A stretch of 64,000 nucleotides of DNA from Limonium bicolor. Taxonomy: Eukaryota; Streptophyta; Magnoliopsida; Caryophyllales; Plumbaginaceae. Below the pieces are notes generated by a model, which searched no databases, had not been told where the DNA came from, and saw only the letters and a list, made by a program, of their open reading frames with translations. The translations under genes and the position numbers were made by a program. Shown here piece after piece: positions 21,444-58,200 of this stretch (positions within the stretch are counted from its first letter, which is position 1; every line of letters begins with the position of its first letter). The DNA is taken from NCBI GenBank assembly GCA_023374045.1, contig CM041777.1, positions 110,201,588 through 110,265,587 of the forward strand. The letters run 5' to 3'.

Positions 21444-21447
21444 AAAG

Positions 21448-32150: not shown

Positions 32151-32330
32151 TTATGGTAGGGGGTTACATATATTGTTACTACGTAAGATGTGAAAGTTCT
32201 TCTAAGGTAAGTTACTACTAAAGTCGGTCCTTAATTCATAGAACATGCTTCAAAAGCGCTTAACACACAACATGGTTTAAAACAATAACACTCGGGTATT
32301 AAGATTACATGTAGCGTGTTGGGCCCCCGC
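32151..32330 (-). other. Probable intron between gag and the AlkB domain in element B
   Basis: About 180 bp with stops in all frames lie between the zinc-knuckle exon and the AlkB domain. They align loosely with 45063-45213 in element A, for example TTAAGCGCTTTTGAAGCATG against TTAAACGCTTTATCTTAGCA, and have a similar length. Splice sites in B are not clean, so the call leans on element A. Confidence 0.4.
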
Positions 32331-33793: not shown

Positions 33794-33993
33794 CTATAAT
33801 ACAGATTGTCGCATCATTAATCGGTAAATATACCATAAAAATTTCGTAGATATTGGATTTCTATAAAGGTTAAAAGGTATACGCGTATTGCGTTTACTAA
33901 ACATAATGTCATTTAACGAGTCATCTCGTACCTCACAGACGTATCCCGTGTTTCCCAATCCTAGGCTCACTGTTTTAATCTTAGTATCTCGTC

Positions 33994-34021
33994 ATCAGAG
34001 CGGTACTCTGCTCTGATACCA
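33994..34021 (-). promoter_or_regulatory. Primer-binding site of element B within a perfect 8-bp stem
   Basis: On the minus strand TGGTATCAGAGC (34021-34010), complementary to initiator-Met tRNA, lies five bases after the LTR end. It continues AGAGTACC and GCTCTGAT, so ATCAGAGC and GCTCTGAT form a perfect 8-bp inverted repeat around AGAGTACC. The primer site could therefore be hidden in a hairpin. Confidence 0.9.
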
Positions 34022-36808: not shown

Positions 36809-37824
36809 TGTAGGATCGGATGGCTGACTCAAACCAACTCAAGGTGTTACTCTGTGAGATGGCTTGACTCAATCGAACTTACACTTGAGACGTAGAAACA
36901 CTTAGTCGAACTAAGTGCATGGAAGCAGTTGCTCAAGGTAGTAAAGTAAGAGAGACTTAGAGGCGCTAAATGGATTAACACTCGAAAGGTAGAGGGACTC
37001 TGTGAAACTTAGCAGGATACACAATATAAGTTATTTTATTTCTTGGTCAAACAAAACAACTTATAATGCCCACTCAGCAGATGAGATCTACTTCATGGTT
37101 TTCACTCACTCACCCAATACAATCTCTGATCAGCTCAATCATAAGTGTAGTGAAAACTAGGTCCTAGCTAGAATGACTCTGTCGATATACACAACGAATC
37201 TAGTACTTATCTCTCTCTTTCTCTCTCTCAAAAATAGGCGAAGCTTTCTTTAACAAATGCTCTGAATGATTCTCCCTGGAAAGCTGCGATTAGAAACGAA
37301 ATGACAAGTCTCTTATATAGTTGTTTGGATCTGAACGTTGGAGAGAGTCTGTTTCCGAAATTCCAGGACCAACGACTCTTTCCTTGAATTTCAGAAGTTG
37401 GAGCCAAATTTCGGAAGCTGGAGCCAAGTCTTCTGATTAGTGCCACCTTGAGATAATTTTGGTCCAAGTCTGAACGTTGATGACCGTTGTAAGTAAATGT
37501 AGTTGCTTTACGTGTCGCTCCTTAATTTTTCGTAACTGCTGACGGACTCTCTCGAATTATAAGAAAGTCAAAGCTTTGGATTATGCTCACATTTTGCATG
37601 AATTTCAGCCCAGGATGATAGTTGGTGACTGTTATGGTGTGTAGACTTGACCCTTGAATTTTGTAACTGATTGATGAATTCACATGGATGGACTCCCTCG
37701 CCTCTTTCGTTAAGGACAAGAGACTCTTCATCTTTCAAGGTTGACTGACTCTGTCTTTTTTTGAGAAGTGTGATTAACTCATTGATCTGGTTGACTATCT
37801 CAGCAACACCTTCATACTCCAACA
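36809..37824 (-). repeat. 3' LTR of copia element C
   Basis: Matches 40730-41735 over its length with some substitutions and small indels. It starts TGTTGGAGTATGAAGG on the minus strand at 37824 and ends CGATCCTACA at 36809. A CT-rich run (CTCTCTCTTTCTCTCTCTC) lies at about 37211-37229. Confidence 0.92.
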
Positions 37825-38799
37825 GTTTATCCTTGTTGTTGATGAGCAAAACTATTTTTGTGAATCCCGAATGAGTCATCTGCAAAAACAGATAAGAGCA
37901 AAAAATTTTGGGGAACCGACCCTGTCCCAGTTCCCCCTTAATTACACATAATAGATTGAGTAACTCTGTTAGAGTTCCCCTTGAATCGATGAGCACAATT
38001 TGGCAAACCACAACCTATTAAGAAGAGATTGGAATAAGGGATTGACTAAGTTAAGAAAACTGCAACCAACAATGATCTATACCAACAAGTAAAAACGAAA
38101 CAGATATCCAAACTTCACCTAAGACCTAGTCGCACAGAGACAAGTCAATCCAGAACATAACCAAGTGACCCGTTCATAGAGAGACGAGATTCACTACTTC
38201 CCCCTTTTTGCTATCATCAGTAAGGGAACTTTGCAACAGAGTCTAAGTCAATCCATACATTAAAAACAAATAGACTGTATCCATAATGCAAACATACTCA
38301 TGGACGACAGGGGCAAGAAGTATTGTCATATTTCACACATACCTTTCATTGCCACATACTCACCCAACTTGTAAGATCCCTGTTGCATTGCATTTATAGT
38401 TTTGAAGACTTTATAGCTCTATATTTGCAATTCCATAGATTTTAACAAGTTAAGCACACAAGGATTGTCCTCCATCCCCTATAATTTTCTCTCCACCCAT
38501 GTAACAAGCTTTGGGTCAACTTTCCCAGGTTTCACCCTTAGGAAGTTAGGTGATGAAGCACCCTTAAAGGCTTAATAACCGAGTGGACGAGGTCCGTTTT
38601 GGTTAAGGAAAACAAGTTAGCGAAGTACCTTGCCTTTGTCCCTCTCTCCCCTTTTTTGTTTTTTTCTTTCTTTTTTATATGAAAGCCGCTAAGGACACAA
38701 AGAATACATAGTCTATCAATATGAGAACACGGATTGACTCAAACAGTATGCAAACAACACCTACTAATTATTACAGCTAAGGGAGGAGAGAGACTCCGT
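37825..38799 (-). other. 3' non-coding region of copia element C
   Basis: The minus strand carries purine-rich tracts such as AAAAAGGGGGAAGTAG (about 38215) and TAAGGGGGAACTGG (about 37930), as in the 3' regions of Sirevirus-like copia elements. No protein motif was recognised. Confidence 0.5.
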
Positions 38800-39260
38800 C
38801 TTACGTTGATTGAGTCATTCCGATTGCTGAACAAGAGTACCTCGAATCTGGTGGTAGGAAGAGGCTTGGCAAAGATATCTGCTAGCTGATCCTCTATTGG
38901 AACAAACTCAGTTGAATTAGCTTTTTCTCAACACAGTCCTCAAGAAATGGAAACGTATTTCAATGTGTCTGGTTCTCAAATGTTGGACTAGGTTTCAGAG
39001 ATTTTAAATGCGTAATTGTTATAACACAGAAAATACCAATTGATCTTAGTAAAATTTTGCTTTGTAGAGGACCAGAGACTAAGCATAGACAAAGGAATTG
39101 TGCTTTGCTATATGTACTCTTTCGATCATGGAGGGAATCTGTCCAGTCAAAGTCACTAAAACTAGATAAAGTAACGAAGGTACCATAGATGAAGTTGGCT
39201 GATTCCTTTTAAGTTCAAAATCGTTCGCTTGACCGCCTTGAGATGGGACTATTTGGGTGT
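38800..39260 (-). pseudogene. Element C: end of RT and RNase H (copia)
   Basis: On the minus strand, in shifting frames, are a HLKAVKRTI-like segment, SDFDWTDSLHDRKST (RNase H start with Asp residues), RTRHIEIRFHFLR, and DQLADIFAKPLPTTRFEVLL followed by SNRNDSINVRR. This order is the C-terminal half of a Ty1/copia polyprotein. Several frame changes and stops are present. Confidence 0.82.
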
Positions 39261-39479
39261 GCTCTGACTTGAAAGCGACATTAGACAGACTTGGTCGTCA
39301 GAATGATGGCATTTAGACACTTCTTGTACTATTTCCTTCTTTACGTCCTGTGGCTTCTAGATATTTTGTACGTTCGTAAAAACTTGCAATTGACAGATGA
39401 GAAAAGTACTAAATTGAAAATTTCACAAATTTGAAAAATGCATAACAGACTATGTTGAAGTCCAGTGACCAGATGGACT

Positions 39480-39700
39480 CCATCTACCTTAAACTTGGAG
39501 GGGTTACCTACGAGCCAACTCCCACGATTTCACCTTGGTTGTTGTTTCCAAAGGTGACCTTACCTCCTTTGTAGGATGAAAGCGAGCTGAATTTGTTGGG
39601 ATCTCCAGTCACGTGTCTGGAGCACCCACTTCCAAGTACACATAGTCCATCTTCACGCTCGACTTTCCCCTGCAAAAAAATCACTTAGTAGTTTTGGGAA
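39480..39700 (-). pseudogene. Element C: copia protease remnant
   Basis: The minus strand reads LGSGCSRHVTGDPNKFSSL and then GGKVTFGNNNQGEIVGVGS. In copia proteases the first motif is DSGCSRHMTG; here the catalytic Asp is Gly, so the protease is inactive. Integrase, which normally follows, is not seen. Confidence 0.82.
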
Positions 39701-39720
39701 CCTAAATATACTTGGGGTCC

Positions 39721-40714
39721 CCTTTTTGAACCAGATTTTTTCAGCTTTTCTTGTACCTCAAGGATAAGATTGAGTCGCTTGATATTAAATGACATCCTTG
39801 TGAACTTTTCACAGGCACTATCTCGATGTCCAGACATCCGCAATAACCACCAATCTTGGTGAGGGGAAGGCTAACATACTTTTGTTGTCCTTTCCACCAA
39901 GATTCAAATGTCTTTTTGTTGTTGGCGCTTGGGTTTATTGTTGGATTTGGAAATGTTTTTCGGAATATCGAATTTACATTTATGCCACATGGGGCTTGAA
40001 TTGAGTGGATCCAACTCCAGATCGTATATTGACTATCTCTTGGGAGAGTTTTTCACTTTCTTTCGTAGATTATCACGATCTTGACTAACTTCCTTGATCT
40101 TGGAGTTGGCCCACCCAGGCAATTCGGATGGAGTGACCTGCTTGATGAAATTGACTGGTTTGAGAGAGAGTGCATGTTCCTTTTCTTTCAGTTTTCGAGT
40201 GGTTGCTCAACAAAAGTGCTTAGAGAGATAACTTGAGATTCTAAACTATTTAACTAATTCTGCAAAGAACAACACTTGTCAGCGAAAACAGTAGATCCCT
40301 TTTGAGAGAGTCAATATGAGTGAGCGACTCCTCTTGTTCCCTTTGGTTAGATTCAGTAAGACTCTTGGTTTTGTTGAGCTCCTTTTTAAGGGAGTCAACA
40401 TGACGCCGAGAGTCTTGCAGATCTAATCTAAGTGAGCAGGAATAGTCTTATGCTCCTCAGCTCATCTCTTAGAGCATACATAACTTTTTGAGATCTCAAG
40501 TTCCTCAATTAACTCGGAGATTTTTCTATTAAGATCAGCTTTAAGAGAGTTAGTTTCAAAAGCCATTTTAGCAATCAAGTCATAAAACCCATAGGAGATA
40601 TACGGTAAAGGTCTGTCTCTAAATGAGATCTCGTTACCTCCCCGTGTTGTCGGGAATCATGGAATGAGTCTGGTCATGTGCCATGTCATCTTGATTGGAA
40701 TGTCAGCTAAACGA
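39721..40714 (-). pseudogene. Element C: gag-like region with coiled-coil segments
   Basis: The minus strand shows charged, heptad-like stretches such as ELNKTKSLTESNQREQEESL and DSLKRDLLF, typical of the gag-linked coiled coil of Sirevirus-like copia elements. Stops and frame changes are many. The assignment rests on composition and on position between primer site and protease. Confidence 0.6.
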
Positions 40715-40727
40715 GGCTCTGATACCA
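40715..40727 (-). promoter_or_regulatory. Primer-binding site of copia element C
   Basis: On the minus strand TGGTATCAGAGCC, complementary to initiator-Met tRNA, lies two bases after the 5' LTR end (CCTACA). It fixes the orientation of element C. Confidence 0.9.
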
Positions 40728-40729
40728 CA

Positions 40730-41735
40730 TGTAGGATCGGATGGCTGACTCAAACCAACTCAAGGTGTTACTCTGTGAGATGGTTTGACTCAATCGAACT
40801 TACACTTGAGACGTAGAAATACTTAGTCGAACTAAGTGCGAGGAAGCAGTTGCTCAAGGTAGTAAAGTAAGAGAGACTTAGAGGAGCTAAATGGATTAAC
40901 ACTCGAAAGTAGAGGGACTCTGTGAAACTTAGCAGATACACAATATAAGTTATTTTATTTCTTGGTCAAAACAAAACAACTTATAATGCCCACTCAGTAG
41001 ATGAGATCTACTTTGTGGTTTTCACTCACTCACTTAATACAATCTCTGATCAGCTCAATGATAAGTGTAGTGAAAACTAGGTCCTACCTAGAATGACTCT
41101 GTCGATATACACAAATGAATCTAGTACTTCTCTCTCTCTCTTTCTTTCTCTCTCTCTAAAATAGGTGAAGCTTTCTTTAAACAAATGCTCTGAATGATTC
41201 TCTCTGGAAAGTTACGATTAGAAACGAAATGACAAGTCGCATATATAGTTGTTTGGATCTGAATGTTGGAGAGAGTCTGTTTCTGAAATTCCAGGGACCA
41301 GCGACTCTTTCCTTGAATTTCGGAAGCTGGAGCCGAGTCTTCTGATTAGTGCCACCTTGAGAGAATTTTGGTCCAAGTCTGAACGTTGATGACCGTTGTA
41401 AGTCAATGTAGTTGCTGTACTTGCTCCTTAATTTTCGCAACTGACCGACGGACTCTCTCGAATTATCAGAAAGTCAAGGCTTTGGATTATGCTCACATTT
41501 TGCATGAATTTCGGCCCAAGGATGATAGTTGATGATTGTTATGGTTTAGTGGACGTTGCCCTTGAATTTTGTAACTGATTGATGAATTCACATGGATGGA
41601 CTCTCTCGCTCTTTCGTTAAGGACAGAGAGACTCATTCAATCTTTCAAGGTTGACTGACTCTGTCTTGTTTTGAGAAGTGTGATTTACTCGTTTGATCTG
41701 GTTGACTATCTCAGCAACACCTTCATACTCCAGCA
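40730..41735 (-). repeat. 5' LTR of copia element C
   Basis: Starts TGCTGGAGTATGAAGG at 41735 on the minus strand and ends CGATCCTACA at 40730. Pairs with 36809-37824. Flanked by ACTAA at 41736-41740. Confidence 0.92.
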
Positions 41736-44111
41736 ACTAACTTTCTATTTACGAATTGACCGTGATTTATAACATATACTTTCTAATGTCATTATAACTA
41801 TATATTATACACTTTTCTTATATTTCTAAAAATCACCAAACTTTACTAACATGTATAATCTGTTATATTATCTAATTTAACCCAAAAATTTTGGAAATTT
41901 TCATTCCTGCCCCATTAGTTTTGTAAATTCAACATTTAACTCCTAATCTTAATATAAGGTCACAAATTTATTACTTATGACATAAATTTTGGTCAAAGCC
42001 CCTAATGTGGTCAATATTGACCTATAAGCTGCCGGTTTAACCCTAAGTTTTAGTAATTACGGTTTTGACCCGTATTTTCCAGAAAATACATTTTTAGCCC
42101 TTAACTTAATAAAACTTCATAAAATTCATTTAAATAGCTTTTGAAGCCTAACTTTCGGTTAATATTATGTTTAGCCCCCAAATTTCATTTTAATTATGCT
42201 TTAACCCCCATCTATACTCGGTAATATTTATATGGACTTAAAACTGGATTAAACTTGATGTAACATAAACTAAAATAACCTAAAGTACATGACCTTATTA
42301 CAAACATTAACATAAGATAAATATTACATATAAATGTCACACATGACATATTTTGGTCACGACTTTTATTATTTTTACCCATGTATGTTTATAAATTGCT
42401 TTTAAACCATTTAAATTATCCTTATGACATTATAAGTCATTTATATGCTAATCAAGCTAACCAAAATGTTAATTAACATCTTGATATATAGTTAGGTCAT
42501 ATAAAACCTTATAACTCCACGGCTTGATTTATTTTTCAACAAAAATGACATAAAACCTTAAATAACTTAGGAATAAGTTTACTTACATAATTTTGAGTAA
42601 CAAAATCAGCCAAGCACGCTTAATAGCTCATGGCCTAATTTTTAAACAAGCTTAAGTTAGTTTTTGAACATAAACTCACATATAACCTTGATTAGTATAT
42701 CATTTAGGTAGTGATTTAGCTTACTTTGACAAGTTTACACTTAGGGTTGATTTCCACAACTTTAGGCAGAATTTTTCCAAGGTTCCAAGCATATTTCACC
42801 AGCATATTTGCAAGGAAAAAGGACATGTGTTAGTCTTGTGATATTAATAACTAGTTACGGTATAATATAAGCCTAAAATGTCATGATTTTTACCTTGGTT
42901 TGTAGAGAGGGTTTAGTGGCGTTATCACCTGATTTTTAAAGTACAAAAAGAGTGTAATAAGTTAGATAACACAACCGCATAACATAAGGTAGGAAAGAGC
43001 TAGGGTTTACCTTGTGAAAACGGCTTTTAATGGTGTTTTTAGCACCAAATCGGTCAAGACTTGAAGAGACTGATATATCTACTGAAATAGTATGTAAATA
43101 GGAGGAAAATAAGCTTAAGGAACTCAAGAACAAAACCAGAAATGAAGAGAAGAAGGAGTTAAAAGCTTAAAGCATGTTTTTACCTTATATGTTACTTAAG
43201 CCTAACATCCCTTCTCCTTTGGATTTTCAGACAAAAAACTCCCCTTATTTGCTACCCAAATCGGGCTGGAGGAGTGTATGGCATGGGATTAGTTTGCAGC
43301 AATGGAAAGAAGAAAAAGAGGAAGATAATGGTGATTTCCATGCTTTAAAATCTTACCTAGTTCAAGATGTATTGTCTTGGAAGCTGGCTTCTTCTCACGC
43401 CAAGGAGGAAGAAAAGGGAGGGTTTGGAGTGGATAATCTCGGCTAGGAGATGGTAATGAGAGGAGAGAGTGAATTTTGGCTTTTTAAAGTAAGATAAGAT
43501 TAAGAATTGAATAGTTATGTGATGAGTCACTTAGGAGATATTTTGGAGATTGCTTAAGGGAGGGGAAACCTCCTAATATTCCTCCCAAAGATTGTCAAGG
43601 TCAAGGAGTAAGTATTTACCATTGACTAGATTAGGTAATTAAGTGTTAATTTTTCACTATTTGAGTACTATTCATATTTTGTTACACAAATTTCTTATTT
43701 TTTTCAAAAACTTTGAATTAGACATTCTAATGCGGTACATTATGTCACATTAGTATACTTAAGGGTAATCAATGCCCTAAAACCAAACAAAACTCATTTT
43801 GAAGACAATCTCTCAAAAATGTGCTTTAAGGAGTTTTAAATCACATTTTGTGTCTTAACGGATTTTTGAGCTTGGCTTTCTTTGGTAGTGGTTTTATTAT
43901 GTTCATTGATGAGTTATAATGCTTAAGAATTAAATTTGGGTCCTAAGGAGTTCATTTGGGCACATATTTGTCCTAAATGGTCAAAGGGTGTAAGTTCTTG
44001 TTTTATGATGACCATTATTGTCTTTAATTTATTTTTAAGGCATGTTTAGGCCTTAATTTATTTGATTATATGTTTAATCAAGGTTTAATTATTTAGGGGT
44101 ATTTCATCAGT

Positions 44112-45062
44112 ACTACGCCTTGTCCATCGGGTTGTTGGACTTCGTCTCAGGCATTTTGTATTCAGAAACCTGGAAGGTGGAGAAGTTCAGAGGTGGGCTG
44201 AAGTAGGAAGCCATGGGTGCTGCTCTGTATCCCACAGTTCAGGTATATTTATTAAATGGTTTGTACATTGTGATTTAATTTATTTAATCCAAGTGTCGAA
44301 AAACTCATGAATTCATTATAGGAGTGCTTTGACGCGGCTTCTCGGACCGAGCTGTTGGTAAACAGCCGGGATGACACCTAGGGGAAGAAGCATAAGGCCC
44401 TAGAGAAGGAGGCTCAGGTTGTGACTGTAGGCAGCGGCAGCAAGGGCGGGAAGTAAGAACCATTTTAAATAAGTTATATTACTCTGCTTGATGTGTGCTT
44501 TTATATATGCAACTCCTAACTCTTTGACGATAACAGGAAGAAGAAGTTCTTCTCCTGGAAGGAAAAAGAAGAAGGAGTAGGCTAGTCAGAAGGGCAAGGA
44601 GAAGGTTCCGCAGCTGACCAGACCTACCTACGATGCCCAGCTTCTTAGATCTGCACCCCAAGGGTAAGCGGTCTAACCTCATGAATAAGTTGTGAATTAA
44701 ATATCAAATACTTGTCCATTTATTAATCCAATCATTGTGTTGTAATAGGTTCTGCACCTCAGCACCACTTTCATTGCAAGCGATGTGGTAATGACCACCC
44801 GGGTGTAGACTGCGTTGGGCAAGCAATGGACTGCCATCATTGCGGGAGGAAGGGTCACCGGTCTTTCGGGTGCTTCGTGAACCTGGAGAGCCGAGTGTAC
44901 CATGCAGCTAAGGGCACTCAGAGCGCAGCGTCTGGTGGAGCTGGAGCTCGAGGTGACCAGAAGGGGCAGCCATCCACTAGCCCGAAGGGGCAGCAGCAGA
45001 CCCAAAAGATGAGCCTACCGGGCAACAGGACACTGAATGTAACGAAGCTGCGGGCACTGGTA
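44112..45062 (+). pseudogene. Element A gag, continued: four exon-like blocks and zinc knuckle
   Basis: The capsid frame resumes after the TCAGT duplication with YYALSIGLLDFV and VEKFRGGLK, as in element B. Coding similarity then breaks at three GT-AG gaps: 44243-44321 (79 bp), 44453-44536 (84 bp) and 44664-44748 (85 bp). Blocks between them read ECFDAASRTELLVNSRDD (exon 2), a KKKFFSWKEK region with a frame change and then DAQLLRSAPQ (exon 3), and HCKRCGNDHPGVDC followed by CHHCGRKGHRSFGC (exon 4, double zinc knuckle). Gap positions and phases match element B, except that an indel near the end of exon 3 shifts the frame. The last block ends at CTG before GTATGAGT, a good splice donor. Stops at LK*EA, DT*GK and a TAG in exon 3 make it a pseudogene. 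Confidence 0.87.
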
Positions 45063-45213
45063 TGAGTACACAACACAATGAAGGTTAGCTTGCAAACCTT
45101 GAACCATTGTATGAAAGCATGACTAAGTGTTAAACGCTTTATCTTAGCATGCATGCGTGATTTAAATACCGCTTAAACAACGACTTACTTAGGAAACCTT
45201 TCATATCTCTTAG
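45063..45213 (+). other. Probable intron between gag and the AlkB domain in element A
   Basis: A donor-like GTATGAGT at 45059-45066 and an acceptor-like CATATCTCTTAG ending near 45213 bracket about 150 bp that have stops in all frames. Element B has a related non-coding stretch of similar length at the same place. Splicing here could fuse gag to the AlkB domain. The reading phase across this junction is not clean in A, so the exact borders are uncertain. Confidence 0.5.
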
Positions 45214-45953
45214 GAGACTTCTATATTTGCTACCCCACTCTCTTAAGACCGAGATCACCTAGACCCGTGGAAGAAAGACGGGAGTACTCTGGCGAGTTGT
45301 GTCATGTAGTCAAACCGCGCATGATACTTCTTTGAGAGTTCCTAACCATAGATGAACAAATCTTCATAGTAGATGAGTGTAGAGTGTTGGGTAAGGGCTT
45401 AGGGAGATTTTATACCCCGGTGTTTAGTAGTGGTTCAAAGATGAAGTTGCACATGATGTGCTTAGGGAAGGATTAGGATCCACAAGCTAGGGTTTACCAA
45501 GAGGTGAGGACGGTAGATGGCGTATCAATACCTAGGATACCTGAGAGTATCCAAACCTTAGTGAGGAAAGCGATAGATATCGCCCAGGACTGTGAGACAC
45601 ACCCTTTACCCGACATGACACCCGATGTATGCATCATCAACTACTACGAGAAAGGAAGAAGGCTTGGAATGCACCAAGACCGTGATGTGACAACCGAGTC
45701 CATCACTAGAGGAATACGAGTTGTGTCATTCTTCATTGGCGACGATGCTGAATTTATCTATGGAGACCAGAAGATGATGGATCTAGCAAGTAAGATCGTC
45801 CTCAAGTCCAGGGATGTGTTGGTATTTGATGGAGGTTCGAGACTTATGTATCATGGGATTAAGAGCATCAAGCTCAACATCGCCCCACCAGCTCTAGTGA
45901 ATGAGACCCACATCTGACCCGGCCGTTTAAATTTAACTTTCAGACAGTATTGA
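45214..45953 (+). pseudogene. ALKBH1-like AlkB domain (2OG/Fe(II) dioxygenase) in element A
   Basis: The frame runs from LRPRSPRPVEERRE (about 45238) to a stop at 45951-45953, and 45504-45917 is fully open. Landmarks in order are VKPRMILL, TIDEQIFIVDECRVLGKGLG, SGSKMKLHMMCLGKD, SIPRIPESIQTLVRKAI, DVCIINYYEKGRR, LGMHQDRD with iron ligands His (45672-45674) and Asp (45678-45680), VVSFFIGDDAEFIYGDQ, DVLVFDGGSRLMYHGIK with the distal iron His (45852-45854), and PGRLNLTFRQY with the 2-oxoglutarate arginines. A cupin-type AlkB fold with this wording, ending GRLNLTFRQY and a stop, is characteristic of plant ALKBH1. AlkB enzymes oxidatively remove methyl groups from nucleic acids. Stops interrupt at LL*EF, KD*DP and HI*PG (CGA to TGA). 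The domain lies between the gag zinc knuckle and protease. Confidence 0.93.
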
Positions 45954-46175
45954 TGAATTCGATAGCTAAGCGTGTAATCATGTTGTCATACCAATTGGAT
46001 AAATTAAATAAGAGTTTATGTGCCTTCAGACATATGTTTTCGATCTGTTAATGTCATTAATTCCTAACTCCATGCCACGAAAACAAAAAGGAGGGTACCT
46101 TGAGCATCTTAGATATGGCGCAGGCCAAGGAGTTCGGTAATGTCCTCACAGGTATGACAACTAACAACCGACAAT
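45954..46175 (+). other. Spacer and start of pol in element A, cut by element F
   Basis: After the AlkB stop about 150 bp of AT-rich sequence follow (with AAATTAAATAAGAG, a possible poly(A) element). Then the frame EGTLSILDMAQAKEFGNVLT opens, matching the start of pol in element B. It is cut at the ACAAT duplication of element F and resumes after 52361 with the protease. Confidence 0.7.
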
Positions 46176-47658
46176 TGCTAACTAAAAATTATAGGAAACT
46201 ATATACATAAAAAGAATAAATAAATAACTAAACCTACAACTCTACTACGGGTAGCAAAATAAACCCGGTCGGAGTATAGTGTAAATATATTACGACCGAG
46301 AGTATCATACTCAAGGGACTTATAGAAAACTAGTCCTAATCCGGGCAAAAGCCTATTCTACAATAATAAGGGGGAAATGTAAATGACACAATAATTAACT
46401 AAAACCTATCTAAATGCGAGGTTTAGGATTAAACCACCCCAAGTATCAATATGATCACGCAATGCAACTTCAAGACACGAACTTAACCAACCAACATGAT
46501 TGCGCCGGATGTCCTGCCGGACATCAGATGCACGGCATATTCAAAGTCTTGAATGTGCCGGACAGGAAGCACCCGGCAGTGCACCCGACACGTTCATATG
46601 GTAAAAACCACTCTCTTGCTTCGAACAAGAAACTCAAAACCCATTAACAAATCGAGCATATATCATGCCACGAAATGAACAAGGAAATGGGGGAAGATGG
46701 GTTAACTCGCAATCTTAAGTCTTGCTCCCGCTGAGGCGCAGAAGACAATGTTTAAAGACCACTAAGATTTGTCTAACCTATCTACTCTTGGGCTTTTTTC
46801 CCTTAAGTACAATTTGCACAAAGAGAGTGAGTGATCAACTAATTCTCTTGTCATAAGAACCATAATCTTAATGAACGCTTGAATTTGTATTGAGATAATC
46901 ATAGTGTATACATAGAAGGAAGTCATCCCTAACCAATACTAACAAGGATCTCCACTTCACCATCCACTCAAATAAGGAAGAAATACATGAGGGAGAAGGA
47001 GATTGGTTATAGCCTTAACCCGAAAAGGAAATCTTCTCTTCTTCTTGTGGATGGATTCGTAGAAATGTCTTGGACACCAACACTTGGAATGAGGCGGAAA
47101 TGAAGTATGGAATGGAGTGTAATATGATGTTGGAATGTGTCAAATGATGTTGCCCCACGGCCTATTTATAGGGCTTCAAAATGTCTCTTGCCGGGCGTCG
47201 TGCCGGATCACCAGTAGCCGGCACACGTGGGAAATGTGCCCAACTGTTAACGGTCGAAACCACCAAATTTGCGCAAAACAGTGTATATGCCGGGTAGAAG
47301 ATACCCGGCATCTCACCCGGCACTAGCTAAATCTCCAACGGTCAATAACTGCCATCGTCTGGTCAACCGTGACGACTCCTCACTTATGCCGGATGGGATC
47401 TACCCGGCATCATATCCGGAAAAGCTCCTTTTCTGATCTATGCTCATGCCGTGCAGGATTAATCCGGCATTGAGTCCGCCATCACTTGAACTTTTGCCTA
47501 GAAAATCATTCCTTGCACAGAAAACTCACAAAAACATAAGTCTGTACAAATAATATACTTTAACACATAATATATATAAATAACACATATATAACTCTAT
47601 TTAGATCAATATAATACTAAATCTAATGCATAAAATATGATAAGTTTGCGGCTTATCA
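46176..47658 (-). repeat. 3' LTR of element F
   Basis: Pairs with 50876-52356; only a small number of differences were noticed by eye, mostly single bases and short indels. It contains at least six GCCGG/CCGGC hairpin units (about 46504-46595 and 47188-47482). Its minus-strand start TGATAAGCCGC is preceded by a purine-rich AAGTGTAGGGCCT tract at 47659-47671. Confidence 0.93.
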
Positions 47659-48702
47659 AGGCCCTACACTTACCTTTTGCTAGTCCTCGAGCAAAACAAG
47701 ATTAGAAAGGACTAATTACTTATGCACACAACTAATAAACTCTAGAATGAAATGTAGATAAATATTCTCAACTCTCTGATGCTATTTCACAAGTATCACT
47801 TAAACCTCCTTATTCCATCAGAAACATACGAATGGGTATAAAAGCAAAGAAATTTCAAAACCGATCAAAAACTTTTGGGCTATTTTGCATAAGGGATTTG
47901 TAATCTCTCCTTTTTCCAGTTTCCATCATTCAGCTCTATTTTTCAAGAGTTTCTGAATATGGCCAAGACACTCATCCTTGGTTTTTATTATTCAGCCCTA
48001 TTTTGCAAGGGTTTCTGAATCAACCATGATTTTTTTGCATTGAAGAACGGGGAATTTAGGATAAAAATAAAAGGAAAAACTCTCATATCTTGCTTTTATT
48101 CTGAGGCATTTTATGCAACCTCAAGGAATATATTGCTTTTCCTTTGGAAGAAGATTTGTTTCTTTTTTTTTCTTTTTCTTCTTCTTTCTTTTGCACAAAA
48201 ACCCTTTTTAAGATTTTCACCCAAAAGATTTTTCACAATTTGAAGAGAAAAGAAAATAATACCCAAAAGTACATGAAGGAAAGAATTAGGAGAAAGATCA
48301 TATACTCATGTCAATTTAAAAAGAATCAAAAAGTTAAAAACAGGAATCTATAAGACATTAGAAAGCTTACCTCTTGAGAGAACAAGTTTTTAGTCATTCC
48401 TAATCTCATTTTAATCAAAAACATGCAAAAAGTTTAGTAAAACATCGATAAAACTCACAACTTATGCTTATTAAAAATAAAACTTTATTTTTTTTAAGGG
48501 GGGTCCCTGCCCTACACTTGGCAGGAACACTGTCCCCAGTGTTCAAAAAGAAAATGTGTTTTTTTTAATGAACTAAAATAACTATAATGTAAGCAATTGA
48601 AAACAATAACATAAAATTAAAAGAGAAAAATTTAATGATATGAAGGACTCCCCTGTTTTATAGTGAAGGCGTGAGGAGGAGCCGCCCTACACTTAGCCTT
48701 TT
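47659..48702 (-). other. 3' non-coding interior of element F
   Basis: AT-rich and non-coding. The purine-rich phrase AAGTGTAGGGC occurs three times on the minus strand: beside the 3' LTR (about 47661-47673), at about 48505-48520 and just after gag (about 48683-48695). Only the first is at the polypurine-tract position. A T-rich low-complexity run lies at 48160-48200. Confidence 0.6.
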
Positions 48703-50107
48703 AGGCTATTTGGCATCATTTGAGATCCTGGGTAGGATAGTGACCGAATTCGCATGCTCCCGTGGATTTGTTTGCGTTTGAGATCGGAGTTGACCTTGCT
48801 GTCTTGGTTGCGTCAGAAGTTGCTGTAATTGCAACTGCAACGATTTGTGCTCTTTGCGAATGGTCGAGATCTCGTTGTGAGTGTCTTGGGTTTTGTTCAT
48901 CAGGGCTGACATCATGTCACGAAGTTCAGCCATTTCAGCCTCTAATGATGATGCAGGATGGGATGGTCTGTATTGCCTTGGACCTCCCTGGTAGCCGGCT
49001 TGACTCTGGAAGTGTTGAGGGGGTTAGTTCCCCTGTTGCCATGGCTGCCGATACCCTTGGTTACTCACATAGTTGACTTCCTCAACATTCTGAAAGTCGG
49101 GCATGTCAGGGCTTGGAGCGTGTGGTCGTGCACTTACCACGTTCGCCTGTTGAGGAAGTTTGTTCATTGCTATTTGCTCTACCACCTTCTATAGAGCGCT
49201 AACCTTCGTGGACGTTTGAGTGTTGCTCTCCAACAACTGCTCATGACTTTGCATAAGTTTGTCAAATTTAGCATCGCCCTCTCCCACTTGATATAAACCA
49301 GCGGTACTACCCCTGGTTCCACCGGTGGCCCAATCCCTAATCTCTTCGCAAAGAGATTCAACCCCACTAAGGAATTGATCTCCAGGCTTCTTTAATATGT
49401 CTGCACCAAGAGAGGATAGGATCATTGTCTTGCACTGGTTGACCAATCCTTTGTAGAACAACTGAGATAGTTGTTCCTTGGTGACGCCGTGGTGTGGACA
49501 TGTGCGCAGCAACCCTTTGAATCTGTCCCAAGTCTCACAGATGTTCTCCGAGCTAGGTTGTATGAAGTTGTAAATCTCGGCGATCATCTCCAGGGTGCGA
49601 CTAGGGGCCATGAATTTGTCATAAAACATGGTTGCCATGTCCTCCCATGTGGTGATGGTACTGGGGGTTAGACTGTGGTACCACTTGCTGGCATTCCCTG
49701 TAAGGCTATGGGGGAAGAGGGAAAGCCTGTCATATTGGAGGACGTTATTTGTGGAGGTTAGGCTGTTTGTATGCTGCAAGAATTTGGTGACATGGAGCAG
49801 GGCATCGTCCGGGTTTGTACCGTCGAAAAGACCTAACTCCTTTATGCATCTAATTTGATGATATGGCTTAATTTTTTGTTATTCATTGTATTCGTTTTGT
49901 GGAAGGAGAGGAAGGTCGATTGCTGGTTTTTGGCCTTGGTTAGAAGGCCGGTTTATGTTACGGGCGGTAGGTGCTGCCATTGGTGTAGGATCTGCTTTTT
50001 GTAGGGTTCGTTGTTGCCTAAAGTTTGAAGCAAGGTTCTCTCGATCTCCGGATCAAGGTTGGCTAAATTTTCAGGAGTACTCGTTGACCGAAGAAGCATT
50101 CACTTGA
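48703..50107 (-). pseudogene. Element F gag (Athila/Tat type)
   Basis: The minus-strand gene starts near 50107 (ENLANLDPEIERTL) and shifts frame once, passing PTARNINRPSNQGQKPAIDL. After a TAA near 49880 it continues with ELGLFDGTNPDDALLHVTKF into a 196-codon open part containing RLSLFPHSLTGNASKWYHSL, TWEDMATMFYDKFMAPSRT, ENICETWDRFKGLLRTCPHH and QLSQLFYKGL. These are hallmark capsid motifs of Athila/Tat gag. The C-terminal part is Gln-rich with a probable coiled coil (AEMAELRDMMSALMNKTQDT) and ends at 48706. No zinc knuckle was seen. A few stops and one frame change suggest it is slightly broken, or that the start lies downstream. Confidence 0.88.
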
Positions 50108-50199
50108 TAACTTCAGGAGGAGCAAGAGAAAATGTTATAATACTTCGTAATAATAAAGGAATAATATAATGACATAATTAAACTTACAAAATACAAAAA

Positions 50200-50765
50200 A
50201 AAATTCTTGGTTATGCCGGACAGAGTGCCGGGCGACCCTTATCCGGCAGTGGACTTCCTCCACTACTGCCGGGTTTATACAAACCAGCATGTTGCCCGAC
50301 GTGACCAAAAATCGAACATAACTTAATTAAAAGACATGAAATGTAAAAGATAATCAAAATGTAAGAGTACATAAGAGATTGTAAGAGATCATTCCTAATT
50401 ATCCCTACTATTTACGACAGAAAATATTGAGAGAAATTGAACATGCCGGGTGATATGCCGGATGAATCCTATTCGGCATAGGACTTCCTCCGAAACGCCG
50501 GGTATAAGAAACCCGGCACGATACACGGCAAGTTCAAACTCGAAATTTAAATTAAAGAATCATAGTATAGGGACTATTAGGAGAGAGAAATAACGAAAGG
50601 TAGTAGCAAGAATGAATTTGAATTGTTAAAAATTTAATACTATACGAATCATAAAAATAACTTGAAAGTGCCGGACAGTATGCCGGGTAGAAACTATCCG
50701 GCATCGGACTTCCTCCGATTATGCCGGGTTTCAGTTTTCTGGCATTGTGCACGGCACCTTCGATT
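50200..50765 (-). repeat. Three leader repeats with GCCGG hairpins in element F
   Basis: Three diverged units starting at 50214, 50444 and 50669 (spacing about 225-230 bp) each contain TGCCGG...TGCCGGG, ATCCGGCA-like, GGACTTCCTCC and GCCGGGTWT words followed by AT-rich sequence. They lie between primer site and gag, so they are part of the RNA leader. The same GCCGG words occur in the LTRs. Each unit can fold around CGGACTTCCTCCG. Confidence 0.85.
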
Positions 50766-50851
50766 CTGCATACACTAATGGCGAAATAAATCAAAGAATA
50801 CAAGAATAAAGAATAGGGCGTTTTACCGAATTTAGGACTTGGACTAATTCC

Positions 50852-50872
50852 AAGTCCCCGGCAACGGCGCCA
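50852..50872 (-). promoter_or_regulatory. Primer-binding site of element F
   Basis: On the minus strand TGGCGCCGTTGCCGGGGACT lies three bases after the 5' LTR end. This form is typical of Athila/Tat elements and I recall it as matching tRNA-Asp. It fixes the orientation of F. Confidence 0.88.
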
Positions 50873-50875
50873 ATT

Positions 50876-52356
50876 TGCTAACAAGAAAATTGGAGGAAAC
50901 TATATACATAAAAAGAATAAAATAAATAACTAAACCTACAACTCTACTACGGGTAGCAAAATAAAACCCGGTCGGAGTATAGTGTAAATATATTACGACC
51001 GAGAATATCGTACCCAAGGGACTTATAGAAAACTAGTCCTAATCCGGGCAAAAGCCTATTCTATAATAATAAGGGGGGAAATGTAAATGACACATTAATT
51101 AACTAAAACCTATCTAAATGCGAGGTTTAGGATTAAACCACCCCAAGTATCAATATGATCACGCAATGCAACTTCAAGACACGAACTTAACCAACCAACA
51201 TGATTGCGCCGGATGTCCTGCCGGACATCAGATGCACGGCATATTCAAAGTCTTGAATGTGCCGGACAGGAAGCACCCGGCAGTGCACCCGGCACGTTCA
51301 TATGGTAAAAACCACTCTCTTGCTTCGAACAAGAAACTCAAAACCCATTAACAAATCGAGCATATATCATGCCACGAAATGAATAAGGAAATGGGGGAAG
51401 ATGGGTTAACTCGCAATCTCAAGTCTTGCTCCCGCTGAGGCGCAGAAGACAATGTTTAAAGACCACTAAGATTTGTCTAACCTATCTACTCTTGGGCTTT
51501 TTTCCCTTAAGTACAATTTGTACAAAGAGAATGAGTGGTCAACTAATTCTCTTGCCATAAGAACCAGAATCTTAATGAACGCTTGAATTTATTGAGATAA
51601 TCATAGTGTTTACATAGAAGGAATTCATCCCTAACCAATACTAACAAGGATCTCCACTTCACCATCCACTCAAATAAGGAAGAAATGCATGAGGGAGAAG
51701 GAGATTGGTTATAGCCTTAACCCGAAAAGGAAATCTTCTCTTCTTCTTGTGGATGGATCCGTAGAAATGCCTTGGACACCAACACTTGGAATGAGGCGGA
51801 AATGAAGTATGGAATGGAGTGTAATATGATGTTGGAATGTGTCAAATGATGTTGCCCCACGGCCTATTTATAGGGCTTCAAAATCTCTTGCCGGGCGTCG
51901 TGCGGATCACCAGTAGCCGGCACACGTGGGAAATGTGCCCAACTGTTAACGGTCGAAACCGCCAAATTTGCGCAAAACAGTGTATATGCCGGGTAGAAGA
52001 TACCGGCATCACACCCGGCACTAGCTAAATCTCCAACGGTCAATAACTGCCATCGTCTGGTCAACAGTGGCGACTCCTCACTTATGCCAGATGGGATCTA
52101 CCCGGCATCGTATCCGGAAAAGCTCCTTTTCCGATCTATGCTCATGCCATGCAGGATTAATCCGGCATTGAGTCCGGCATCACTTGAACTTTTGCCTAGA
52201 AAATCATTCCTTGCACAGAAAACTCACAAAAACATAAGTCTGTACAAATAATATACTTTAACACATAATATATATAAATAACACATATATAACTCTATTT
52301 AGATAAATATAATACTAAATCTAATGCATAAAATATGATAAGTCTGCGGCTTATCA
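50876..52356 (-). repeat. 5' LTR of element F
   Basis: On the minus strand it opens TGATAAGCCGCAGAC at 52356 and closes CTTGTTAGCA at 50876. Near identity with 46176-47658 suggests recent insertion. The GCCGG units are repeated at about 51205-51297 and 51888-52182. Confidence 0.93.
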
Positions 52357-52384
52357 ACAATAAATAAGTGATTAAATCAGACTC

Positions 52385-52640
52385 GATGCTAATATGAGAA
52401 ATAACCTCATGTACCCTTCCTGTCGATGGTGTTAGTGCGTCCATATTGTTCGACTCCGGGGCTTTGCACTCGTTTATCTCCTCTACATTCGTGAAGAAGC
52501 TGAAGGCAGCCCCCGAACAGCTCTCTGACTTTTCAGTCACTCTTCCTTCTAGGGAGACAGTTGGACGCACTAGACAGTACACTGGACTAGAGATCGGCAT
52601 TATGACTGAGACCTTCCCCATCGACTGATCGAGTTCAAGA
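52385..52640 (+). pseudogene. Element A aspartic protease
   Basis: The frame resumes after element F with PVDGVSASILFDSGALHSFI, in which DSG is the catalytic motif of retroviral-type aspartic proteases. It continues STFVKKLKAAPEQLSDF and ETFPID before a stop at 52628. The catalytic triad residues look intact, in contrast to element B (DLG). It would process the gag-pol polyprotein. Confidence 0.87.
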
Positions 52641-53800
52641 ACTTGGGCTTCGATGTCATTATTGCTATGGACTGGCTGCAGAAGTACAAGGGCAGCCTAC
52701 ACTGTGCAGAGCATCGACTACTGCTGAAGGGGCCGAGCGGCAACATAGTGTCATACCGTAGTGTGAGAGAAGAACCATCTGTCAAGATCGTGTCAGCGCT
52801 ATCCCTGATAAAGGACATGAGGAAGGTAATCAGGCCTTTCTCTGTTATGTTCAGGACACGAGGTAGAGTGATGAGATGGACTCTGATATTCCAATCGTGG
52901 TAGACTTCCCCGACTTGTTCCATGATGAGTTGTCAGGCATGCCGCCTATGCGTGAAGTTGAGTTCTTCATCGACCTTCTACCTGGTACGGGGCTTATTGC
53001 TAAGGCACCCTACTGCATGGCACCTGCAGAGATAGGGAGTTAAAGCTACAGTTGGAGGATCTCCTCGACAAGGGATTCATCCAACCTAGTGTATCTCCTT
53101 GGGGTGCTCCGGTGCTGTTCGTCAAGAAGAAGGACGGTAGTTTGAGGCTTTGCATCGACTACCGCGAGCTGAATGTGGTCACGGTCAAGAACAAGTACCC
53201 GTTGTCAAGGATCGATGACTTGTTTTACCAGCTGAGTGGAGCTAGTGTATTCTCAAAGATAAATCTCAGATCAGGCTACCATCAGATCACGATTGTAGAG
53301 GGTGATGTGGAGAAGACAGCTTCTGAACTCGGTATGGGCACTACGAGTTCACTGTTATTCCATTCAGATTATCGAATGTGCCAGCCATATTTATGGACCT
53401 GATGAACCGCCTCTTTAGAGAACAGCTTGACAGTTCAGTTGTGGTCTTCATCGATGATATCCTAGTCTATTCTAAGACTCAGGAGGAGCATGAGTTACAT
53501 CTGAGGCGAATTCTGAGTATCATGAGAGAGAACTAGTTGTATGTCAAGCTCTCGAAGTGTGAGTTCTGGTTGGACAGCGTGTCATTCTTGGGGCACATCA
53601 TGTCAGCTAGCGGGATATCTGTAGACCCTGCCAAGATCAAGGCAGTGAAGAGTTGGCCGAGGCCGAAGACGGTAACAGACATCCACAACTTTCTAGGTTT
53701 GGCCAGTTATTACCGAAGGTTCGTAAAGGACTTCTCTAGAGTGGCCAAACCGACGAAAAATATAATGAAGAAGGAGTCTAAGTTCATATGGTCTGCCGAG
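52641..53800 (+). pseudogene. Element A reverse transcriptase
   Basis: In order: [101 protein letters not shown], then the active site [13 protein letters not shown] at about 53440-53480, [20 protein letters not shown] and [20 protein letters not shown]. This is a complete gypsy RT order. Stops (for example REN*LYVKL, a CAG to TAG change at 53534-53536) and indels around 52890, 53030 and 53330 inactivate it. Confidence 0.93.
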
Positions 53801-54317
53801 TGCGAGCAGTCCTTTCAGACACTGAAGGATCTCCTAACATCGGCACCCGTTCTTACTATCCCTGAGGGCGCTGATAGGTTCGAGGTATACTGTGATGCCT
53901 CTGGAATCGGTCTAGGTTGTGTGCTTATGCAGCATGAGAAGGTCATTGCTTACACCTCCCTACAGCTAAAGAAGCATGAGGTGAACTACCCCACACACGA
54001 CCTTGAGTTGAGCGCAGTAGTCTTCGCACTGAAGATCTGGCGCCACTATCTTTATGGTGTGATAGTCACCGTCTACTCTGATCACAAGAGTTTGTAGCAT
54101 CTCTTTCACTCAGAAGAAGCTGAACATGAGACAGAGAAGATGGGTCGAGTTCCTGAAGGACTATGACATAGACCTTAAGTATAAGGAGGGCAAGGCGAAC
54201 GTTGTAGCCGACGCCCTGAGCCGCCGAGCACATTCTTTGTTTACTCTTCTAACGGGCAGCTGTTTGATCGATGAGATACGAGATGCACAGGATAGCGACA
54301 ACAAGTATATGAAGAGT
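53801..54317 (+). pseudogene. Element A RNase H, cut by element D
   Basis: Motifs [49 protein letters not shown] followed by a TAG where B has CAG, then [20 protein letters not shown] and [13 protein letters not shown]. The RNase H Asp, Glu and Asp residues are present. The frame is cut within the linker to integrase at the ATCAG duplication and resumes at 56813 (RQKLAEG). Confidence 0.92.
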
Positions 54318-54322
54318 ATCAG

Positions 54323-56807
54323 TGTAACACCCTAACCATTAATACTACGATTGTCGCTTAAACCTCCATATCTTAACATAAAATTGCAGCGTAAATTCTA
54401 CTAAGTTTGGTGTTACCACCATAAGTCACCCACGTGACTAACTAGGCATACTATAATCTCCAGTTACGGTCTGATGGACCCGAATATACCAAGCAAAGAC
54501 TTACAATAGTTAAACCAAAATATAACGAGTATCTAGTTTCTCGTACCGCTAATACAAGTTCGCTAAACGTCTACTATCTACAACCCTGAGTGTACATGCA
54601 CAACTCAGGTAACAAAATAAAGAAAACTTGGAATACGTCTACCCTCTCCTACTCTCAGGATGAGTCGTCTTCCATCCCTTACCTGAAAAATAATATGGAT
54701 GCCCCGAGGGGCTCAGCACCTTTGCTGGTATGATAAATGTGCAGCCCACAAGCTAACGAGGCTACACACGACTAATTGGTCGTATACATGCAATTGATTA
54801 ATCATACATACAATAGAAAGAAGTATGATAACACACTACGTAATTATCTGAAATAATCATAGCTCAAATAGATCGAACGATGTAACGGACGTTCATTAAG
54901 TAAGTGAGTTAGCTCCTTAACTCCTTAAGCCTGAGAATTATTTAATTCTCGTATTCAACCTCATCTCATAAATGTCAACCATTCTTTAATTAGATCTGGT
55001 TGTACCTTAGTCCGTTGTTTATTTTTGTCAGGTCAAAAGTAACCCTAGCCAATTAGCTACTAACTCTACTGGTTAAATAAACAATAATTCTTAAATTGGG
55101 ATTTAGGAGATCCCACTGCACCATCTTAATCTGGCCTCCCACCTTGTATTGTAATCCAAGGTGGCTGAGTCTGTTCGTCGACTCTAGATGACGAGTTCGT
55201 AGATGAGTCTCAAATGGAAGACGAATCTGATACAGATACTGACCTCCTAGCTAAACATGCATGATCGGAGTCAGTCCCGGATTCCTCACTCCCTCCCCCC
55301 CAAGTTTCAGTTAGTATAAGTCTCGAAGACAATGTTTGTTAGGTAAACCTCTTTCGGATATTAACCAACCAATAACAGAGAGTGTCTCATGTTCTTTCAC
55401 ATTCGTTTATTAACCGAAGTTAGTAAGTAAACTCAAGGTATGTCGTGTTAGTATAATACGAACACGCAACAAAATGCGGTAAACTAGTTTCATGCTTTAT
55501 CTTGTTTAGTTGTAACATATAAACAAACGGCACACAAGATGAAGGTAAACCTCATTAGCAAGCAAGCTGCAAGAAAACCATACCGTCCACAGGAGATTGG
55601 CTAGCTCTAAAAATGATGTTCGCCTAACCGTCGAACACCTTCGACTAACTAGTTCCTATAATATAGTAGTCGGGTACGTTAATAACTTAATCATCTCATA
55701 ACTATTCCATTAACATATGTAACTCTCTTAATCAATCCCTAATCACTTCATCATTTCATGTGACGGTCTAACCGTCTCGTCATTTCGCGTGACGTCTTTT
55801 TGTCTTAACCATTTCCTTGGTTTTAACATGCTAACTATATATACACGTGTATGTATACAATATTATAAATCTAATGTCACACTATTGTCACATTGCTCCT
55901 CTTAATACACTCCTTGTTATTTCGCTATATTTATGCGACGTCAACATCGTCTCGCTATTTTATGCGACGTTTTCTTGTCTTAACTAAATCCCGATCATTA
56001 CGACTTTTAGCTTAAATCTCTTAACCAACTAATTACTAATATATAGCCCATTCTGTTTTTAATTAGTACTCCACCACTTAACTTTCCAATTACAAATATA
56101 CTCCACTTAGTTTCTAATCTTTACAACTTAATTCCTTTTTACACAAGCATACATATATTATGTATGTTATACATCTCCTTTCTTCAAAATGTCATACAAC
56201 TTTACTATACTCCATAAATTCCTCAAATGTCATGCATAGCATGATTACTCTCCTAATATTTTAATTTATTACAACTTAACCCCAAACTAGTTAGCACACT
56301 TTCAAGGGTGGGCAACTGCCCAGTGTTTGAACCTGGGAGAAAGTGAAGGAGAATTTTATTTTGAGTGTAATACCCTTGAGGTTTACCTCCCACATTGATT
56401 GGAGGAGAGAACAAACCACTCCTTATATGGGTGGGGATACCTCTCCATGTTGTGAGGCCTTTTGGGGCTAGGAAACCCCAGGAACAAAACCATGCGGTCT
56501 GCATGCCAAAGCAGAAAATATCACAATAGTGGGATACTGGGCTGTTACAGCTGGTATCAGAGCCAGACCCAGGTCGGTGTGCTGGTGGGCCTACGAGGGT
56601 GTTGGGCTCCTAAGGGGGTGGAGTGCAATACCCTTAAGGTTTACCTCCCACATCTATTGGAGGGGAGAACGAACCACTCCTTATATGGGTGGGGATACCT
56701 CTCCTTGTTGTGAGGCCTTTTAGGGCTAGAAAACCCCAGGAACAAAACCATGCAGTCTACGTGCCAAAGCGGACAATATCACAATAGTGGGATACTGGGC
56801 TGTTACA
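54323..56807. mobile_element. Element D: Tekay-type LTR fragment joined to a TRIM
   Basis: The insert begins TGTAACACCCTAACC and ends GGGCTGTTACA, flanked by perfect ATCAG at 54318-54322 and 56808-56812. The left 2 kb resemble an inverted chromovirus LTR: TGTAACACCC edge, CCACGTGACTAACTAGGC, then GGGGCTCAGCACCTTTGCTG as in element G. The last 440 bp are a TRIM-like double LTR (56366-56807). No TRIM duplication exists, so the two parts were joined before or during formation of the present insert. Confidence 0.75.
56366..56807 (+). mobile_element. TRIM (miniature LTR retrotransposon)
   Basis: Two LTR-like copies of about 180 bp (56366-56549 and about 56628-56807) start TGTAATACCCTTGAGG and TGCAATACCCTTAAGG and end GGATACTGGGCTGTTACA. 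Between them are a Met-type primer site TGGTATCAGAGCCAGACC (56552) and a purine tract AAGGGGGTGGAG about 60 bp later. The whole unit is only about 440 bp and non-coding, which is the TRIM definition. The left flank TTGAG and right flank ATCAG differ, so no target duplication is visible. Confidence 0.85.
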
Positions 56808-58082: not shown

Positions 58083-58200
58083 ACTAGGAACAAGGCCGTT
58101 AGCATGGTCAAGGTTCTCTGGTAGAACCATGACGTGGAGGAGGCTACATGGGAGTTAGAAGACTCCATGAGAGTGAAGCATCCAGCACTCTTCGAGTAGT
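58083..58200 (+). pseudogene. Element A chromodomain-like C-terminus
   Basis: After HILDTKMR and a TAG the frame reads TRNKAVSMVKVLW, a TAG, then NHDVEEATWELEDSMRVKHP and ALFE with a stop at 58198-58200. The same ending in element B lacks these two stops. The short aromatic/acidic VKVLW...ATWE core is the chromodomain form found at the ends of plant chromovirus integrases. Confidence 0.82.

Follow-up and report, generated by a model that had tools for sequence, protein, structure and literature searches.

What is a nucleic-acid dioxygenase doing between the gag and pol genes of a plant retrotransposon? The question arises from a stretch of 64,000 nucleotides of Limonium bicolor DNA (assembly GCA_023374045.1, contig CM041777.1, positions 110,201,588 to 110,265,587 of the forward strand; hereafter the window, with coordinates counted from its first base). 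Here a frame resembling plant ALKBH1, a member of the AlkB family, had been predicted from the sequence alone to lie within a long terminal repeat (LTR) retrotransposon that we call element A. A second element in the window, element B, has a related domain in the same slot, and in both the order is gag, AlkB, protease, reverse transcriptase (RT), RNase H, integrase. On balance we favour the view that A and B represent a Ty3/gypsy family with a conserved OsALKBH1-like AlkB domain between gag and pol, the enzyme of which would demethylate the element's own RNA or single-stranded cDNA.

The domain of element A is readily recognized.

45214-45953 (coding frame 45216-45950), plus strand: AlkB (2-oxoglutarate (2OG)-Fe(II) dioxygenase) exon of element A, with its own stop and three internal stops, assigned from motifs, PF13532, stops and an acceptor-like site

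The frame contains LGMHQDRD, LMYHGIK and PGRLNLTFRQY followed by TGA at 45951-45953, just as the original prediction described it. With X placed at the stops, the whole frame matches PF13532 over profile positions 2-194 of 194 (E 1.4e-35; 123.7 bits, the curated cut-off being 31.2), and the open part 45477-45914 does so alone (E 5.9e-26). Compared with chains of the PDB, this open stretch matches 5xeg, whose title is OsALKBH1 (E 1.4e-34), E. coli AlkB (E 2.6e-15) and ALKBH1 (E 1e-5), in keeping with the plant ALKBH1 type that had been proposed. The frame lies 3′ of a segment with two zinc-knuckle patterns and 5′ of the start of pol; the predicted placement after the zinc knuckle and before the protease also holds, although a nested LTR element at 46175-52357 now separates AlkB from protease. 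All iron and 2OG ligands are retained: N, Y, HxD, H and both arginines of RLNLTFR are identical in elements A and B, and the HxD...H, RxxxxxR and N-x-Y ligands are invariant or nearly invariant columns among 54 proteins. Three features go beyond what had been noted before: internal stops in the domain (45333, 45474 and 45915), intron-like breaks, and a copy on the minus strand at 31443-32180.

This second copy was found in a translated search of the window with the element A domain, which matched the minus strand at 32171-31446 with 62% identity over 242 residues (E 6e-97).

31443-32180, minus strand: AlkB domain of element B, in the gag-pol slot as in element A, with five internal stops (PF13532 E 1.3e-38; 62% identity to element A, no gaps)

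It scores 133.7 bits against the same PF13532 cut-off of 31.2. Element B spans 22197-44106 on the minus strand and is inserted within gag of element A. The target-site duplication (TSD) TCAGT flanks it on both sides, so that it is a separate insertion.

Has the domain been maintained by selection? Between A and B the AlkB segment (740 bases, 245 codons) is 62% identical with no gaps, whereas gaps occur in nine of the ten other A-B segments compared, the exception being the 74-base pol lead. The ratio of nonsynonymous to synonymous divergence (dN/dS) is 0.201 for AlkB (bootstrap 0.13-0.29; 237 codons, eight with stops skipped), and 1.03 and 1.76 for the other two frames over the same bases. The pol pieces give 0.089 (904 codons, 33 skipped), a value biased toward conserved parts by the choice of these pieces with tblastx. 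The AlkB dS of 1.18 is near saturation, and the selection estimates are rough. The LTR pairs give K80 distances of 0.066 and 0.079 for element B and 0.073 for element A (919 sites only), a difference of about 7% per copy. Neutral decay after insertion therefore accounts for only about 0.07-0.08 of the AlkB divergence, and by our own arithmetic the dN/dS before insertion was about 0.15. The low dN/dS taken with the small LTR divergence argues that selection on AlkB acted while the elements replicated. By this comparison of two copies, the AlkB domain of this family is under purifying selection during element replication, and the predicted enzyme likely helped the element to spread.

To which AlkB subfamily does the enzyme belong? 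A search for relatives of the domain gave 1542 proteins at E 1e-10 or better, the best 120 of which were listed. The top relative among those listed, P0001, is a stop-free protein of 273 amino acids (aa) encoded on an ENA contig listed at 26,561 bases; it is 68% identical and matches PF13532 with E 7.8e-45 (153.9 bits). An AlphaFold2 model of P0001 (54 sequences; pLDDT 87.5) has as its nearest folds the OsALKBH1 structures 5xoi and 5xeg (50-51% identity), followed by E. coli AlkB (27-29%), mammalian ALKBH1 (18-23%) and ALKBH5 (15-17%). As modelled, the element enzyme is OsALKBH1/AlkB-like and not ALKBH5-like. Named host ALKBH1C and ALKBH1D proteins are 39-53% identical over the domain (best 120 of 1542), and together with OsALKBH1 resemble the element domains in the C-terminal RLNLTFR(Q/E/K)(Y/F) and in the nearest solved fold. 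They differ in that the retro-type sequences form a clade of their own on a long stem, and in that A and B sit in LTR elements.

This clade, a retroelement family of the kind that the original prediction had anticipated, comprises A, B, P0001, P0002, P0003 and P0033. Its support is SH-aLRT 100 in a tree of 84 domains, and 100/100 in a fuller search on 48 of the 84 rows, where A, B and P0001 group at 99/91. Members are 56-68% identical to the element A domain; an element context is established for A and B and probable for P0001, while P0002, P0003 and P0033 belong by sequence. The clade stands apart from the sampled host genes, among which the ALKBH1 genes of L. bicolor itself are not included, on a stem of 0.78-0.79 as drawn. 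It may lie beside angiosperm ALKBH1C/D host genes (support 93 with 84 rows, 51/89 with 48 rows), and neither tree places the retro-type sequences inside the host-gene clade. Of 103 long proteins fusing AlkB to other domains, none exceeds 49% identity to the element A domain, and three scans of viral contigs yielded no relatives. P0161 of Cinnamomum micranthum was considered as a clade member and rejected, its domain grouping with avocado P0079 at 100/100. In its gene model a host-type AlkB domain is combined with a Retrotrans_gag domain, which may reflect a fusion of gag with a host gene or a chimeric annotation.

A search with part of the element B pol returned 7005 proteins among 7955 scored candidates, of which 120 were listed. 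P0225 is an unbroken pol of 1095 aa, 84% identical to the query, and its ENA contig also has 26,561 bases; P0001 and P0225 are thus probably parts of one third copy of the element. PF13532 is absent from all 120 pol relatives listed; a count made by eye gives 32 in which PF03732 and PF00078 occur together in a single protein.

The remaining parts of the two elements are as follows.

19103-20053, plus strand: 5′ LTR fragment of element A, matching 61116-62060 (919 sites, identity 0.930, K80 0.073)
21445-22196, plus strand: leader side and 5′ half of gag of element A, cut by the insertion of element B (tblastx to element B, linked E 3.9e-33)
44107-45083, plus strand: 3′ half of gag of element A in four exon-like pieces, the last with two zinc-knuckle patterns by eye (alignment to element B, AT content)
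46078-46151, plus strand: pol lead segment of element A (GTLSILDMAQAKEFGNVLTG)
46175-52357, minus strand: further LTR element, nested in element A between AlkB and protease, with gag at 49189-49878
52413-54118, plus strand: protease (by similarity to element B and P0225), RT and RNase H of element A, in pieces
56835-58196, plus strand: integrase, SH3-like domain and weak chromodomain tail of element A
61116-62060, plus strand: 3′ LTR fragment of element A
22197-27366, minus strand: 3′ LTR of element B, about 5.2 kb, inner end approximate
27957-31158, minus strand: protease, RT, RNase H, integrase and chromodomain-like tail of element B, with several frame breaks
32309-33811, minus strand: gag of element B by comparison with element A, outer end approximate
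34010-34021, minus strand: primer binding site of element B, TGGTATCAGAGC, just inside the 5′ LTR
34027-44106, minus strand: 5′ LTR of element B, interrupted by another LTR element at 36808-41735

From their LTRs, TSD, primer site and order of gag, protease, RT, RNase H and integrase, elements A and B are Ty3/gypsy LTR retrotransposons. The primer site TGGTATCAGAGC we take to be of the tRNA-iMet type. RT and RNase H have Pfam matches in element A, integrase in element B and SH3 in both; the proteases were placed by patterns and similarity, without a Pfam match. The gag assignment in both elements rests on position, similarity between A and B, and zinc-knuckle patterns. Both are likely chromoviruses, a label resting on matches to the chromodomain PF00385 (E 0.0059 in element B, 0.009 in element A and 1.5e-4 in the tail of P0225) that all fall below the Pfam cut-off.

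Several further insertions lie within or beside these elements. The nested LTR element at 46175-52357 is young (LTR identity 0.978, K80 0.022); its only open reading frame (ORF) of at least 120 aa, besides one overlapping its right end, is the minus-strand gag at 49189-49878, and it is perhaps non-autonomous. In element A, RNase H and integrase are separated by an insert of about 2.5 kb (54323-56807). It is flanked by ATCAG, has TGTAACAC and TGTTACA as its ends, and contains GGTATCAGAGC as well as a repeat of 187 bases (56363-56549 and 56621-56807). At about 62060 the match of the element A 3′ LTR stops at TGTAACACCC, which resembles the end of another LTR element leaving the window. The LTR element at 36808-41735 within the right LTR of element B has LTRs at 36808-37824 and 40729-41735 that are 91% alike, with GCTCTGATACCAC beside one of them.

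How might a gag-pol element express a domain that ends in its own stop? Both copies are interrupted by short segments that resemble introns.

44243-44321, plus strand: intron-like segment 1 of element A, GT-AG, 77% AT
44453-44536, plus strand: intron-like segment 2 of element A, GT-AG, 69% AT
44664-44748, plus strand: intron-like segment 3 of element A, GT-AG, 71% AT
45084-45213, plus strand: intron-like segment 4 of element A, from the zinc-knuckle piece to the AlkB exon, GT-AG, 64% AT
33170-33083, 32942-32865 and 32727-32644, minus strand: gag intron-like segments of element B, the 32865 end placed by eye
32183-32308, minus strand: intron-like segment preceding AlkB in element B, ending in AC instead of AG
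31159-31232, minus strand: intron-like segment inside the pol start of element B, GTAAGA...CACAG, 69% AT

The gag segments begin with GT and end with AG, and measure 79, 84 and 85 bases in element A against 88, about 78 and 84 in element B; for the second of the latter MAFFT gives 93 bases without a terminal AG, 78 being a reading by eye. Their composition is distinct, the AT content of the intron-like segments being 0.64-0.77 and that of the gag and AlkB exons 0.41-0.55 (0.69-0.77 against 0.41-0.49 within gag). In element B, the frames flanking segments 1-3 agree by eye with phases 0, 2 and 1, in that order. Of 123 GT sites, the top seven include all four donors of element A, and base 45214 is the first after the highest-scoring acceptor-like AG of the 175 within 44108-46151; the pol-lead acceptor of element B is second of 181 AG sites. 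From these patterns gag looks to be split by short GT-AG introns in both copies. The position of the element A AlkB frame at the best acceptor-like site suggests that splicing selects Gag-AlkB or Gag-Pol. By eye, the first full codon is preceded by two bases in both the AlkB exon of element A and the pol lead exon of element B, which would let a single gag donor splice to either.

A tentative scheme can be built on this. In its boldest form, to which we give somewhat less than an even chance, an intron-split lineage would have captured the terminal exon of a plant ALKBH1 gene, and alternative splicing would yield Gag-AlkB and Gag-Pol, so that every particle would bring along a demethylase of its own and have its template cleaned ahead of reverse transcription. 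Within the view favoured above, Gag-AlkB, ending at the AlkB stop, would arise when the zinc-knuckle exon is spliced to that of AlkB, and Gag-Pol when it is spliced to the pol exon, while unspliced RNA would be packaged as the genome. The Gag part would deliver the enzyme into the particle and to the RNA, where it could clear 1-methyladenosine (m1A), 3-methylcytidine (m3C), N6-methyladenosine (m6A) or its DNA counterpart 6mA, marks that would block reverse transcription or label the RNA for host control. Removal of m1A and m3C would aid reverse transcription. Removal of m6A could free the RNA from host control, such control by m6A being reported for the plant retrotransposon ONSEN (PMC12786077). 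A third option would be removal of 6mA from cDNA, given the reported activity of rice ALKBH1 on 6mA in single-stranded DNA in vitro (PMC10469495).

A number of observations weigh against these proposals. Both copies are broken, with three internal stops in the domain of element A, five in that of element B, and frame breaks in gag and pol, so production of the enzyme is not expected from either locus. No Pfam gag family matches the gag pieces of A or B, the capsid piece of element B has no Pfam match, and the best zinc-finger models reach E 0.11 (zf-CCHC_3, element A) and 0.056. The co-location of P0001 and P0225 rests only on the equal listed size of their contigs. Splice sites were scored with general consensus weights rather than trained ones. 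The site in element B aligned to the AlkB acceptor of element A is AC, and an AG four bases on would alter the phase; conversely, the site in element A aligned to the pol-lead acceptor of element B has no AG. Three of the five marked donors in element B score 3, below nine others, its pol-start acceptor has a low score, and the acceptors of segments 1 and 2 in element A fall outside the top 12. The phase of the gag-AlkB splice is obscured by frame breaks.

How does this family compare with known systems? The original prediction knew of no AlkB domain described in a plant LTR retrotransposon, and this does not stand: Phalaenopsis Gypsy elements carry one, which demethylates m6A on single-stranded RNA in vitro and is nested among ALKBH5 homologs (PMC9289625). 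In the literature that we covered on LTR elements (their introns, AlkB and other additional domains), outside which lie most subscription papers and bioRxiv, only that paper and a citing review (PMC12786077) concern AlkB in an LTR element. Comparison with the orchid elements was made by description. Like our family, Gypsy_Pa_2799 is a plant Ty3/gypsy element with a conserved AlkB that keeps its cofactor ligands. Our elements differ in their primer site, presumed to be of the iMet type, in the chromodomain-like tail and in the gag intron-like breaks. The Phalaenopsis elements have an RT of the Tat family beside Ogre, a tRNA-Arg primer site, and gag and pol in one ORF, with an ALKBH5-like AlkB in a separate ORF of 565 aa (ORF2) where ours is OsALKBH1-like and lies between gag and pol (PMC9289625). 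Two traits of the orchid lineage are thus lacking here, the ALKBH5-like domain (15-17% identity, against 50-51% to OsALKBH1) and the tRNA-Arg primer site (TGGTATCAGAGC in element B, taken to be of the iMet type). What is new relative to the orchid precedent is the enzyme subfamily, the slot and the element type, and the gag intron-like breaks were unexpected. An OsALKBH1-like enzyme here and an ALKBH5-nested one in orchids make it likely, as judged from the modelled fold, that the two captures were independent. If so, plant LTR retrotransposons would have acquired an AlkB demethylase for a second time, here from a different enzyme subfamily and in a different element type, and such recurrence would imply that retrotransposition is genuinely hindered by methyl marks or alkylation on the RNA or cDNA of the element.

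Other comparisons are more distant. Among plant RNA viruses, the Alpha- and Betaflexiviridae and Closteroviridae include members with AlkB (PMC9289625); set beside our elements by description, these are likewise mobile genomes with an AlkB enzyme of their own, but RNA viruses. Plant LTR elements are described as generally without introns, Ogre and EVADE being exceptions (PMC12786077; Ogre also PMC6317226) in which introns of the gag-pol region regulate the products. Here, by contrast, there are three intron-like segments in gag and others beside AlkB and in pol, recognized by their sequence pattern; if spliced, those in gag would offer LTR elements a new means of adjusting the proportions of Gag, enzyme and Pol. 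Retrosat2, RIRE3 and RIRE8 have similar long LTRs, TGT(C/A)ACACCC at the LTR end and an extra ORF (PMC3485330), and Retrosat-2 is listed under Tekay/Del (PMC6317226). The extra ORF0 lies upstream of gag-pol, however, and in the available part of PMC3485330 is not described as AlkB.

Could the domain work in another way? One alternative, which we consider unlikely though worth keeping in view, is that AlkB is a separate accessory gene, expressed from an internal start through its own transcript or reinitiation without fusion to Gag, and acting on cellular RNAs at large as proposed for orchid ORF2. The frame has its own stop, there is a Met at the Pfam domain start in element A (45321), element B, P0001, P0002 and P0033, the listed ORFs of P0002 and P0033 start at that Met, and in orchids AlkB has an ORF to itself (PMC9289625). 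Yet the roughly 35 residues preceding the Met retain a pattern (IC.P...RPRSP) common to element A, element B and P0001, which suggests coding upstream, the frame of element A opens at the best acceptor-like site, the listed ORF starts are mechanical, and the same Met is found in host ALKBH1 proteins.

Equally doubtful in our estimation is an enzyme acting on DNA rather than RNA, clearing single-stranded cDNA or the new insertion of 6mA or alkylation damage and so aiding integration or later expression. The nearest solved relative, OsALKBH1, and the reported 6mA activity of the rice enzyme point in this direction, but AlkB-type enzymes act on RNA too (PMC7968990), and the reported control of ONSEN is through m6A.

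That the gag segments are instead neutral spacer insertions or the result of decay, gag-pol then being read in another way, seems improbable. In its favour, one copy or the other has lost certain sites, others have low scores, and the 32 pol relatives with PF03732 and PF00078 in one protein indicate that introns are not usual in the group. Against this, the GT-AG borders are common to both copies, the content is AT-rich, and the frames on both sides in element B fit the phases given above; P0225 also starts a few residues past the pol intron-like border, though this start was chosen by the ORF caller. Finally, a host ALKBH1 fragment acquired once by chance and carried as passive cargo, an outcome that the original prediction had itself raised, is very improbable and we reject it: both copies are now pseudogenes, but the domain has a clade of its own, occupies the same slot in two separate insertions, and is gap-free over 740 bases with a dN/dS of 0.20, not near 1.

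Two observations concern the left part of the window. Tandem arrays with a 22-base unit of the AAAGTGAATCAAAGGTTCAAGA type lie at 9465-10231, and the minus strand at 2809-3404 holds a pair of ORFs that overlap and include repeated peptides, for example VRTSKFGRK.
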